Source: Acetomicrobium hydrogeniformans (GTDB lineage: Bacteria; Synergistota; Synergistia; Synergistales; JAFGMB01). From it: 64,000 nt of DNA. Both the position numbers and the translations under genes were made by a program. Under the pieces are notes generated by a model. It had not been told where the DNA came from, ran no database searches, and saw nothing but the letters and a program-made list of their open reading frames with translations. The stretch's first letter is position 1; the number at the start of each line of letters is the position of its first letter. Location: positions 370,799 to 434,798 of the forward strand of contig JAENYO010000001.1 of NCBI GenBank assembly GCA_016841745.1. Reading direction: 5' to 3'. Shown here piece by piece: positions 59,178 through 64,000 of this stretch.

Positions 59178-59665
59178 CAAGAGTAGCCATAGCATTGGGA
59201 AGTAACCTTGGAGATAGACTCGGGAATTTAAGGAAAGCCCTGCGTCTGCTGAAACTCAAAGGGATAAATATAACAGGCAGAAGCGACATTTTCGAAACCC
59301 ATCCTTTAGGACCACAGGACCAGAATCGATTTCTGAACGCCTGCATCATAATTGATTCTCTACTTTCTCCGCAATCTCTTCTTATACTGCTTAAGGACAT
59401 TGAAAAACAGACAGGAAGGATCCATCGGGAAAAATGGGGTCCCAGAGAAATTGACCTGGACATACTCCTTTACGATAACGACATAATCAATGAAAATGAT
59501 CTTACCATTCCGCACCCTGAATTTCATAAAAGATCTTTTGTTCTTTTACCCCTTGAACAGTTAACACCTTACTGGATCCACCCTGTAATAGGAATAACCA
59601 TAAGAGATCTGAGCGAAAAACTTCAAGACATGGATCAGACCATGGTACGCATTGCCCAATTGTAG
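59174..59665 (+). CDS. folK: Hydroxymethyl-dihydropteridine diphosphokinase
   Basis: Activates hydroxymethyl-dihydropterin for FolP. 163 residues with ALGSNLGDRLGNLRKAL, ETHPLGPQDQNRFLNACI, and HREKWGPREIDLDILLYD. TTG start overlaps the folP stop with AGGAGG seven bases upstream. folB would normally lie beside it but is missing. Confidence 0.94.
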   Translation: MTRVAIALGSNLGDRLGNLRKALRLLKLKGINITGRSDIFETHPLGPQDQNRFLNACIIIDSLLSPQSLLILLKDIEKQTGRIHREKWGPREIDLDILLYDNDIINENDLTIPHPEFHKRSFVLLPLEQLTPYWIHPVIGITIRDLSEKLQDMDQTMVRIAQL

Positions 59666-59678
59666 CGAGGTGAGATCA

Positions 59679-60428
59679 TTGCCATACCTTATTCGGTTTT
59701 TTCTACCATTTCTTTTTATCTTACATTTTTTCATTTATCCTATATCACCGGCATGGGCCTTCAACAGGGTCTTATCCGTCCCCCAGCAACCTTTTTTTAT
59801 ATCCATTGAACAACATAAATATGAGGCCGGAGAAATCAGGAAGGCATTTCTTCGGACCTCGACAGAGTTATACCGACTTTATGAAATGGAAGGGCTCATC
59901 TACCGAGATTCACACTACTCGCTGGTCCATGCAGACAGTGACAACATAGAGGATCTTATCTGGCATATTGAACTGGAAGACCCTCAAAAGGGTAATGATC
60001 TGACCATGTGGGTGACTACACTCTCAAAGGTTAAACTCGGGTGGGTTATTTTGACACCGGAGGGAGAGACCAGATGGGACAACCTCCCTCTTGACATCGA
60101 AATACCCGGGGATGTTATCCTGTACGTCTCACCGAATACACCTGAATACAGGGGGATAAGCTCATACAGGGGTAATGATATACTTTCATTTGTCTACACT
60201 ATAGCCATAACACCCGACGGTCCAGCCCTTGTATCCGTTCCGGAAATATATCAACAGCTGACAAAAATAAGCCGTATGGTTATAGCTAACGAAGCAGACC
60301 CCAAACTCAGACTTGTGTATGAAAACATCTGTGATGATTACCAGAGGATGACCGAAGGCCGGATGCCATCAAAGGAAGCCATTCTTAATTTCACATGGGA
60401 AAAGATCCTAGACTTTGAATGGGAATGA
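59679..60428 (+). CDS. Exported protein of unknown function, folK-linked
   Basis: About 249 residues: signal peptide (MPYLIRFFLPFLFILHFFIYPISPAWA, cleavage after AWA) and a mature domain with no recognised family: SIEQHKYEAGEIRKAFLRTSTELYRLYEMEGL, a beta-rich middle and a helical C-terminus. TTG 59679 is fixed by GCGAGGTGAG; the open frame begins earlier inside folK. It ends before a plus-strand terminator. Not recognised; the folate context may be only transcriptional. Confidence 0.65.
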   Translation: MPYLIRFFLPFLFILHFFIYPISPAWAFNRVLSVPQQPFFISIEQHKYEAGEIRKAFLRTSTELYRLYEMEGLIYRDSHYSLVHADSDNIEDLIWHIELEDPQKGNDLTMWVTTLSKVKLGWVILTPEGETRWDNLPLDIEIPGDVILYVSPNTPEYRGISSYRGNDILSFVYTIAITPDGPALVSVPEIYQQLTKISRMVIANEADPKLRLVYENICDDYQRMTEGRMPSKEAILNFTWEKILDFEWE

Positions 60429-60485: not shown

Positions 60486-60959
60486 TTACATTGTACTGGA
60501 GGATTCCTGTATCTTTTTAAGAACTTCCTCAGCATGACCCTTAACTTTAACCTTTTCCCATAAGTATTCGACCTTACCTTCCGGATCTATGAGAACAGTG
60601 GATCTTACCACACCCATGTATTCTTTGCCATACATCTTTTTTAACTGCCATAACCCATAATCTTCTATTAACTTGTGATCCGGGTCACTGAGAAGCTTAT
60701 AATCAAGAGACAGCTTTTGCGCAAAACGGATGTGGTTTTTTACTGGATCCGGACTTATTCCTATAACTTCTGCTCCAAGATCTCTGAAAGAGGACAACCT
60801 GTCCTGAAAATCTCTGGCCTCGTTCGTTCAACCAGGAGTAGAATCTTTTACATATACGAATAGAACTACCCTTTTACCCCTCATATCTTCCAGACAGGCC
60901 TCTTTACCATACTGATCTTCAAGACAGAAAACAGGCGCTTTCTTTCCGATGATATCCAT
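60486..60959 (-). CDS. Selenocysteine-containing BCP-type peroxiredoxin (UGA readthrough)
   Basis: Thiol- or selenol-dependent peroxidase of the bacterioferritin comigratory protein (BCP/PrxQ) family. Translation from ATG 60959 (GGAGG eight bases upstream) gives MDIIGKKAPVFCLEDQYGKE, VVLFVYVKDSTPG, then TGA at 60828-60830, then TNEARDFQDR and on in frame to the stop. BCP members have TPGCT at this place, so the UGA replaces exactly the peroxidatic cysteine (residue 44). The C-terminal part is intact: VIGISPDPVKNHIRFAQKL, LLSDPDHKLIEDYGLW, VVRSTVLIDPEGKV. A SECIS-like hairpin follows. No cysteine five residues after Sec44 (Arg49 instead), so it is a one-Cys-type enzyme. 157 residues, normal. 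Conventional calling would give only a 103-residue fragment starting at TTG 60797. Confidence 0.92.
60791..60805 (-). promoter_or_regulatory. Bacterial SECIS-like element
   Basis: Minus strand AGGAC-AGGTT-GTCCT, a 5-bp stem with a loop whose second base is G, beginning 22 nt after the UGA. Spacing and loop G fit known bacterial SECIS elements recognised by SelB. The element lies within the coding sequence, as is usual in bacteria. Confidence 0.75.
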
Positions 60960-61008
60960 TATTTATTCCTCCGGTTTTTCAATACATCTCGTGAAAAAAA
61001 TATCCTCT

Positions 61009-61599
61009 CTAATCGAAATCTACTTTTGGCGTAGCATGGATCCCTACAGCAGAGAGATCCTGCATGCACAGGAGTTTGCCCTTATTGTCGATAAGACATT
61101 TTTTGATCTCTACCTCCAGATCAATTGAAGTATTTTCATAATCGATAAGAAACTCCTCAATTTCCCTGAGATCGGGCTGTTCTCCAAGATAATATACCCT
61201 CGTGAATATCACCTCATGTTTCTCATTAAGGAGGATGTTAGCTCTTTCAGAGAAGCCATCCTTATCCCTGAAGAGTCCAAAAGCTCCAGCAATTTCACCG
61301 TGGGGCCAGAAATCAGAAAGCAGACGAAGTCTTTCGATTCCTATTTCTTTTGCCCATGCTTTCTTGCAAGGTACTGTATCTACACTCAATCCAAAGGGAA
61401 TAGTATTGAGTTTTTCAAAAAGGTCCATCCTTACATCCAGCCTGTTCATCTGCTCAGTACATATTTTCGTCCACGCAAGAGGGTGAAAAGAGAGGAGAAT
61501 ATTCCTTCCCTTGAAATCAGATAGTCTTACTTCCTCGTTATTCTGATCTTTCAGACTGAAATCCAGCGCTTCAAAACCTAAGCCAATAATTTCCCCCAT
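61009..61599 (-). CDS. Peroxiredoxin (AhpC/TSA family) with C-terminal extension
   Basis: 196 residues. FEALDFSLKDQNNEEVRLSDFKG, then FHPLAWTKICTEQMNRLD, where the cysteine (TGT) is the peroxidatic residue though the usual TxxC context is WTKIC, and ANILLNEKHEVIFTRVY. The last about 40 residues extend beyond a standard domain and include Cys173 and Cys183, possible resolving residues. GGAGG eight bases before the ATG. It lies between korB and the selenoperoxiredoxin on one strand, so the oxygen-sensitive oxidoreductase and two peroxidases are probably co-expressed. Confidence 0.85.
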   Translation of the reverse strand: MGEIIGLGFEALDFSLKDQNNEEVRLSDFKGRNILLSFHPLAWTKICTEQMNRLDVRMDLFEKLNTIPFGLSVDTVPCKKAWAKEIGIERLRLLSDFWPHGEIAGAFGLFRDKDGFSERANILLNEKHEVIFTRVYYLGEQPDLREIEEFLIDYENTSIDLEVEIKKCLIDNKGKLLCMQDLSAVGIHATPKVDFD

Positions 61600-61622: not shown

Positions 61623-62483
61623 TTATTTTTGCATATCAAGCAACTCTTTAAATTTATCCATATCAAAATCTCTTTGGTAAAGAGGACGCTCATCTTCCCT
61701 GTAGATACCCAGATTTTCTTCAAAAGAGTCTCTGGTATTATCTTCATAGATGATGCCAAGAGGATATTTGTCCTCCTTCAAAGCAAGAAGTATAGCTTTT
61801 TCCCTGTTCCCCGAATCATGATCGTCATCAAGATAATAGGTATTGTCCATAAACCACTTATAAGTATTTACCTTGTTGAATGAAACACATGGCTGGAAAA
61901 TGTCAACCAAAGAATAACCCTTGTGGAGGATCGCTTTTTTTATTATTTCCCTGGTTTTCTCGAGATCTCCGGCAAAAGCCCTTGCAACAAATGAAGCTTT
62001 CTGGGCAATAGCTATGGAAAGAGGATTAAAGGGCTCGTTTATAACACCATCGACCTGGACAGAGGTCCTGAAACCTAAGGGGCTCGTAGGGGATGCCTGG
62101 CCTTTCGTAAGTCCATAGACCATATTGTTACAGACAATATTGGTTATATCAGTATTACGTCTTATGGTATTAATAAAATGGTTACCACCTTCCCCGTACA
62201 TATCCCCATCTCCACCTATAACTATCACTTGAAGAAGGGGATTGGAAGCTTTTATGGCAGTAGCATTGGACAATGCTCTTCCATGAAGACCATTGAAAAA
62301 GTGGGATTTCATGAAATGGGGCATTTTAGCAGCCTGACCAATTCCCGATACAATAACCACTTTCTCCGGGGTAAGACCAAGTTCAGCCAAGGCTCCTTTT
62401 AAGGCATCCAATATCTTGAAATCTCCACAACCCGGACACCACTGGATATCAATATTCTGAAGGTCAAAAATACTAGGATCCAT
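61623..62483 (-). CDS. korB: 2-oxoacid:ferredoxin oxidoreductase beta subunit
   Basis: TPP-binding subunit, 286 residues. [64 protein letters not shown] (TPP site) and [17 protein letters not shown]. Pairs with the alpha/gamma gene upstream to decarboxylate 2-oxoacids to acyl-CoA with ferredoxin reduction, a core step of amino-acid fermentation. The precise acid (2-oxoglutarate, 2-oxoisovalerate, pyruvate) is not set by sequence. Confidence 0.93.
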
Positions 62484-62494
62484 CTTTTCACCTC

Positions 62495-64000
62495 CTAATC
62501 CAGAATCTTGTCAAGATATCTGTAAACATCTTCAGAAGAGAACTGTAACCCACTGTAATTAAGAACCAGGTGGTTGGCCTCAATTCCAGTTTCTCTTCTG
62601 ATAAGTTTAGAAAACTGACCGGTAGCGTTACCCTCAAGAACTATGACCTTTGATGCCCTTGAAAGGTTATTTCTTATTTCCTCGGAAAGAGGCCATATCT
62701 GTCTCAGATGAAGAAAGGCCGTGTCAGCAGATCGGAGCAATTTTGCCGTTTCCATGACCATAGGATATGTAGATCCCCAGGAAATAACCAGGTTGTTGAA
62801 ATCAGGCGGTCCGAAAAAAAGCGGTTCAACAGTTTCTTTTTCGATCTCTCTCATTTTTCTTAATCGTTTATCAACCATTCTGACCCTGAGTTCAAAATCT
62901 TCCTGAACATGTCCCCATTCGTCATGCTCATGGCTATCCGCTCCAACTATGCCCATGCCATGACCAGGAACAGAGCGTGGGGATATTCCATTATCTGACA
63001 TAATGTATCGTCTGTAATCTTTATCTGCTTCTACGATATATCTGTCAATGAAGATCATTCCAGTATCTATCGCGGGGATATTATAAAAGGAATTAAGAAA
63101 ATACTGATCTGTAAGTATTATGACCTGGGTCTGAAATTTATCAGCGAGATTAAAAGCTCTCTGTGTAAGCCAGAATCCATCCTCTATCGTTGCAGGTGCC
63201 AGAATTATACGGGGGAATTCTCCGTGTCCCGAGTAAAGAGCAAGTTCAAGGTCTGCCTGTTCTGTCCTGGTAGCCATACCTGTAGCTGGGCCAGGCCGCT
63301 GTCCCAGATGGATCACTACAGGTGTTTCCATGATACCCGCAAGGCTCAATCCCTCACTCATCAGGGCAAATCCGCCGCCAGAGGTGGAAACCATAGCCCT
63401 TGCTCCTGCATATCCGGCTCCAACTGCCATATTGATGGCAGCTATCTCATCCTCGATCTGTTCTGCAACGATGCTAAAAGATTTTGCGTGTTTAGATAAA
63501 AAAGCAAGGACCCCTGTTGCAGGGGACATCGGGTATGAGGCAATAAAATTACATCCTCCGGCGATCGCACCAAGGGATACGGCTTCGCTTCCATCCATCA
63601 AGAGCTCTTCCTTTACGCCAGGATCAGGTTCCAGATCAAGGGAGATCAGACCCGAAGATCCCATCCGCTCTCCAATCAGAAAACCTTTTTCCATGGCAAC
63701 AAGGTTATTCTTAACTACCCCTTCGCCTTTGGAAAGGAAAAAGACATTGAAGAACTTTTTTACTTCCTGAATTGGCACTTTACAGAGCCCGAACATTATG
63801 CCAGCGGCAACGACATTGGAATAAACTGCCCCCCCCGCTTCTTTGGCAAGTCTGATCAGGTCAACATTATAAAATTGTCCTGAAAGGGAATCGACTTCAC
63901 CACCAAGTTCCTCTTTGTCACCAACAATAACTGTTGAATCAGATATTCTATCTCTTATATTTTTCCTTATTCCCCCGTTGAGGGCAAGAAGCATATCTAT
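62495..64000 (-). CDS. korA: 2-oxoacid:ferredoxin oxidoreductase alpha subunit with fused gamma domain (partial)
   Basis: The gene enters from the right edge; about 500 C-terminal residues are visible. The first part is the gamma domain ([45 protein letters not shown]), followed by the alpha pyrimidine domain with [51 protein letters not shown], and the C-terminal transketolase-like domain with [16 protein letters not shown]. Gamma-alpha fusions occur in many anaerobes. It is followed by korB after 11 bases. Confidence 0.92.

Follow-up and report, generated by a model that had tools for sequence, protein, structure and literature searches.

A UGA-containing BCP/PrxQ-type peroxiredoxin gene of Acetomicrobium hydrogeniformans, predicted to encode a selenoprotein and linked to korAB

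Results

An in-frame UGA at the peroxidatic position of a BCP/PrxQ-type peroxiredoxin

The DNA analyzed here, a stretch of 64,000 nucleotides from the genome of Acetomicrobium hydrogeniformans (the window), carries on its minus strand a gene that very probably encodes a functional selenocysteine (Sec)-containing peroxiredoxin of the BCP/PrxQ type, with UGA44 read as Sec; both Sec incorporation and the activity of the product are predicted from sequence comparisons. The Sec machinery of the genome, the standard genetic code of the window, the recurrence of TGA at the same codon among relatives, and a hairpin downstream of the UGA argue for a selenoprotein gene, rather than for a pseudogene or a sequencing error.

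Read from position 60959 to 60486 with TGA taken as Sec, the gene (60486..60959, minus strand) runs from ATG to TAA over 157 residues and contains a single TGA, at residue 44 (60828..60830, minus strand), which places Sec at the peroxidatic position in a TPGUT context. A Shine-Dalgarno sequence, GGAGG (60968..60972, minus strand), is read 8 nt 5′ of the ATG, in line with the strong ribosome site that the original prediction had placed at the start. The interval 60486-60959 had been given correctly in that prediction, which had not named the strand; the plus-strand reading of the same interval was rejected on account of its many stops. Standard gene calling had also been expected to truncate the gene, and the table-11 open reading frame (ORF) list does hold only a 103-aa remnant at this locus, beginning at an internal TTG at 60797. 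Because 18 of the window's 53 long, non-overlapping ORFs are terminated by TGA, the genetic code is standard, and UGA is not reassigned. Among other read-through frames in the uncovered DNA of the window, inspection by eye revealed no obvious protein family.

The 157-aa product matches the Pfam family AhpC-TSA across the TGA (E 4.9e-38, residues 4-132), as would a continuous BCP-type peroxiredoxin broken by one UGA, which is how the locus had been described. PrxQ/BCP crystal structures align with residues 9-151, and the query ‘stpgct’ (U entered as C) falls on ‘NTPGCT’; with the TPGC of the BCP/PrxQ proteins standing opposite TPG-U, the earlier proposal that the UGA takes the place of the peroxidatic Cys in the TPGCT context of the family is upheld. 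An AlphaFold model built from 15 homologues (mean pLDDT 94.6) has BCP/PrxQ proteins as its nearest solved structures, the best being 9a4d_B (BCP, TM 0.95), while the Xanthomonas and Burkholderia PrxQ/BCP structures superpose with TM scores of about 0.88-0.90. Relative to the Cys-type PrxQ/BCP proteins (Xanthomonas PrxQ 5iiz/3gkn, Burkholderia 5enu, and BCP 9a4d), the window protein possesses the same fold (TM 0.88-0.95) and the same active-site context, but carries Sec in the place of the peroxidatic Cys and lacks both the resolving Cys at +5 and a Cys at the position of Xanthomonas C84.

The BCP/PrxQ active site, comprising the PxxxTxxC/U motif and a catalytic Arg, is preserved, with T41, residue 44 (U or C), and R119 invariant in the homologue alignment; the replacement of P37 of the PxxxTxxU motif by Val in the window protein and in its G001 homologue is a small departure. 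The best-scoring subfamilies are PrxQ NF053650 (150.8 bits, cut-off 260) and the NCBIfam thioredoxin-dependent thiol peroxidase PRK09437 (138.1 bits, cut-off 140).

The genome encodes the machinery for Sec insertion

The genome from which the window is taken (G000; 3.04 Mb, 99.6% complete) was searched for selA, selB, selC, and selD, the check that the original prediction had proposed, and all four genes are present. The tRNA-Sec scores 77.9 bits (gathering score 47) and is assigned the anticodon TCA by ARAGORN; selB scores 361.8 bits (cut-off 242), the adjoining selA 556 bits (cut-off 268), and selD 327.6 bits (cut-off 125). SelD is itself a selenoprotein, with an in-frame TGA at SGUAAK (G000:C7:161485-162414, plus strand). 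That selA accompanies the Sec form of the peroxiredoxin is weak evidence, since 133 of the 183 genomes of the order have selA; it was not found in two of the 16 genomes bearing the Sec form, G001 (86% complete) and G071 (96% complete).

The catalytic TGA recurs among relatives

The sample comprised 188 genomes of the phylum, 183 of them in one order, and a close homologue (E ≤ 1e-25) was detected in 28 of these 183. Codon-by-codon alignment of the 28 order homologues places TGA at the catalytic codon in 16, the window's included, and TGC/TGT in 12; no further internal stops are found in any of the 28. Outside the order, TGC/TGT occupies the catalytic codon in all 80 of the best homologues kept by a genome scan, which used Cys-containing patterns and is therefore silent on Sec forms elsewhere. 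In a maximum-likelihood tree the Sec forms fall into two groups, with at least three Sec/Cys changes; one group unites the window family and family f3 and has a Cys group nested within it, and the other, family f8, adjoins a Cys form.

A TGA flag alone is not evidence, and the 16 cases within the order were therefore verified codon by codon. In a control set of 284 genomes from the phylum of a deltaproteobacterial match, seven rows flagged ‘1 TGA’ are found among those listed; all seven were rejected as Sec forms, because their catalytic codon is TGC and the TGA lies at, or close to, the 3′ end of the gene.

A conserved, covarying hairpin follows the UGA

Folding and base-pair covariation in 15 Sec genes identify a SECIS-type hairpin, AGGACA-GGU-UGUCCU (60791..60805, minus strand), the apical loop of which begins 28 nt past the UGA and has G as its first base. 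The same hairpin lies downstream of the UGA in 15 of the 16 Sec genes; its apical triloop is usually GGN, and one gene that shares it has a 5-nt loop. The sixteenth Sec gene carries a different hairpin, of 8 bp, whose GUC loop lies 21 nt past the UGA, 7 nt nearer to it than in the others. A hairpin energy of −2 kcal/mol or lower with the loop at position 27-29 is attained by 11 of the 16 Sec genes versus none of the 12 Cys genes (Mann-Whitney p = 0.002 for Sec versus Cys hairpin energies), and in four Sec genes an A.C mismatch in the stem keeps the energy above this limit. The window hairpin is stronger than 99.6% of synonymous recodings. In the alignment of the 15 Sec genes, 88% of cells pair, and in five of the eight pairs both sides have changed; double changes occur in 13 cells, versus 5.3 in shuffles, with 0 of 500 shuffles as high. 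As a control, sliding the pair partners by 1-3 columns abolishes the covariation signal. These positional, synonymous-recoding, and covariation tests replaced plain minimum free energy (MFE) folding, which for short stretches around the UGA was no better than for shuffles, the z-scores being non-significant.

The bacterial SECIS model calls for a loop of 3-9 nt with G in the first two loop positions, a spacing of 16-37 nt, and an MFE of −7.5 or lower (PMC13188914). The window hairpin follows these rules in its spacing and loop G, while the isolated 15-nt hairpin (−5.7 kcal/mol) falls short of the −7.5 limit, which is reached only when the longer local fold around it is taken (−12.3 kcal/mol). 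No SECIS family of Rfam matched the locus, even at E values as high as 10. Judged by its conservation and covariation, the putative element fits the bacterial SECIS expected at this place. At about +7 to +12 after Sec, the reading in most Sec members is [DG]R[ML] and that in most Cys members ALE or AEL; the protein sequence in this region seems to be constrained by the predicted SECIS hairpin.

The Sec gene stands behind korAB

Three genes precede the Sec gene on the same strand. The nearest (61009..61599, minus strand) encodes a second peroxiredoxin, of the AhpC-TSA family (E 7.9e-25), with an ordinary Cys (WTKIC); it reaches no NCBIfam equivalog cut-off, its best score being 50 bits. Next are the KorB-like beta subunit of a 2-oxoacid:ferredoxin oxidoreductase (61623..62483, minus strand; TIGR02177, 358.9 bits, cut-off 261.9) and the KorA-like alpha subunit (62495..63994, minus strand; TIGR03710, 528 bits, cut-off 482.75), the ORF of which matches the TIGR03710 profile from position 67 on and has its 5′ end outside the window. 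The order is thus korA-korB-Cys prx-Sec prx, with gaps of 11, 23, and 49 nt, and we infer that the korA-korB-prx-prx genes would be co-transcribed as an operon. Convergent to them, 59652-60428 (plus strand) encodes a 258-aa protein that has no NCBIfam match and that several relatives conserve at the corresponding position.

Twelve Sec loci, that of the window among them, have sufficient flanking DNA, and in every one korB precedes the Sec gene, either immediately or with a second peroxiredoxin in between. Among nine Cys loci, the kor arrangement is present in two (G006 and G007), the other seven being without kor genes in the DNA fetched. Six genomes (the window's, G001, G025, G008, G033, and G006) combine korAB with the tandem of a second peroxiredoxin and a PrxQ-type gene. 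The locus comparison points to vertical inheritance of the Sec gene within the putative kor operon, with most Cys forms at separate loci, whether through relocation or paralogy.

Alternative readings of the UGA

Were the UGA a nonsense mutation that broke a Cys peroxiredoxin, the gene would be a pseudogene, and that the standard call retains only a remnant from the internal TTG is in keeping with such a history. A broken gene is, however, difficult to reconcile with 16 genomes, in two Sec groups, that have TGA at this codon and no further disruption in any of them, with a window protein that is 60% identical to its nearest TGA homologue and conserved on either side of the codon, or with a hairpin that is conserved and covarying; we regard decay of the gene as extremely improbable. 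The chance that the TGA is a sequencing or assembly error for TGC or TGT is likewise minute. The window does come from a 15-contig assembly, but the TGA, which the original prediction had allowed might prove to be TGT or TGC upon resequencing, recurs at the same codon in 15 other assemblies. This recurrence excludes a miscall, and only TGA genes carry the SECIS-type hairpin.

There is also very little probability that the UGA is decoded as another amino acid, by a reassigned code or by near-cognate reading as Cys or Trp, or that it acts as a regulated switch between 43-aa and 157-aa products. In other selenoproteins, Sec codons are known to cause partial termination when selenium is limiting, which lends the switch some plausibility; yet TGA is a regular terminator of the long ORFs in the window, a dedicated tRNA-Sec with a UCA anticodon is present together with SelB, and the TGA codon always coincides with the position of the catalytic chalcogen.

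Discussion

A proposed catalytic cycle

The window protein has no canonical resolving Cys, either at +5 or in helix α3. The PrxQ resolving Cys at +5 is found in no homologue of the order and in 53 of the 80 homologues outside it. Family f8 and one f3 member have zero Cys besides Sec, the Sec members share no further conserved Cys, and C12 and C22 of the window protein are common, within the order, only to its nearest relative and one Cys group. With the +5 Cys missing, family f8 devoid of Cys, and C12/C22 so narrowly shared, it is unlikely that the Sec group in its entirety relies on an obligatory intramolecular resolving Cys; our best guess is that thioredoxin or a different thiol donor carries out the reduction directly.

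In peroxiredoxins, the peroxidatic chalcogen attacks the peroxide and is converted to a sulfenic (here selenenic) acid, which is then reduced by a thiol; the wider family includes 1-Cys variants. In the mechanism that we propose, UGA44 would be decoded as Sec by SelB and tRNA-Sec, aided by the stem-loop ~28 nt downstream. The Sec44 selenolate, located at the start of helix 2 in a PxxxTxxU-type site, would reduce hydroperoxides and become a selenenic acid, which an external dithiol donor, most likely thioredoxin, would reduce back. Because the Sec members lack a Cys at +5 and have none conserved elsewhere, the cycle would probably be 1-Sec, or else proceed via a lineage-specific Cys (C12/C22 in the window protein). 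As the product of the last gene in the putative operon, the Sec peroxiredoxin probably protects cells from peroxide, and perhaps it shields the oxygen-sensitive ferredoxin oxidoreductase of the same operon, a role read from gene order only. That the Sec-PrxQ proteins of the order combine a strictly 1-Sec cycle with a dedicated peroxide shield for the same-operon oxidoreductase we consider doubtful.

Relationship to known Sec peroxiredoxins

Sec-containing Bcp-type peroxiredoxins are already known, and the window gene is another member. The Sargasso Sea set includes 43 genes for Sec-containing peroxiredoxins of COG1225 (Bcp) with the motif TxxU (PMC1088965), and such proteins are catalogued also in PMC9312934 and PMC13188914 (example WP_011365628.1); Sec-to-Cys changes in the family were counted in 2006 (PMC1794560), and a 2016 survey described the Synergistetes, the phylum (Synergistota) to which the window's genome belongs, as selenoprotein-rich. 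The window gene and the catalogued proteins agree in COG/Pfam family, in having Sec where TxxU places the peroxidatic Cys, and in a bacterial SECIS-type element. In these respects it presents no difference in kind from them; its setting is beside korAB and within one order. What is new here is the covariation in the SECIS-type hairpin, the way Sec and Cys forms are distributed within the order, the link to kor, and the lack of a canonical resolving Cys.

The parallel that the original prediction had drawn to Eubacterium acidaminophilum stands insofar as both are Sec peroxiredoxins of anaerobes, but does not extend to the subfamily. The E. acidaminophilum protein, which we take to be of the PrxU type (NF040737), belongs to a separate subfamily, and the window protein, at 35.9 bits, does not reach the NF040737 cut-off of 270. 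A true PrxU-type protein is encoded elsewhere in the same genome as a second Sec peroxiredoxin (G000:C7:566500-566961, minus strand; FTFVUATE; NF040737, 378 bits). A third likely selenoprotein is a peroxiredoxin-like thiol:disulfide oxidoreductase with a UxxC motif, RGRWUPYC (G000:C8:386418-386681, plus strand).

Implications

General knowledge of selenoproteins is unchanged by the finding of this Sec peroxiredoxin. Because standard gene calling would truncate or miss it, the peroxide defence of these anaerobes would be under-annotated. Within a single order, the 28 homologues include both Sec and Cys forms, some of them from the same operon, and they furnish a compact natural comparison, in which it can be followed how Sec/Cys exchange accompanies the gain or loss of the SECIS hairpin, and the linkage to korAB offers a testable physiological partner.
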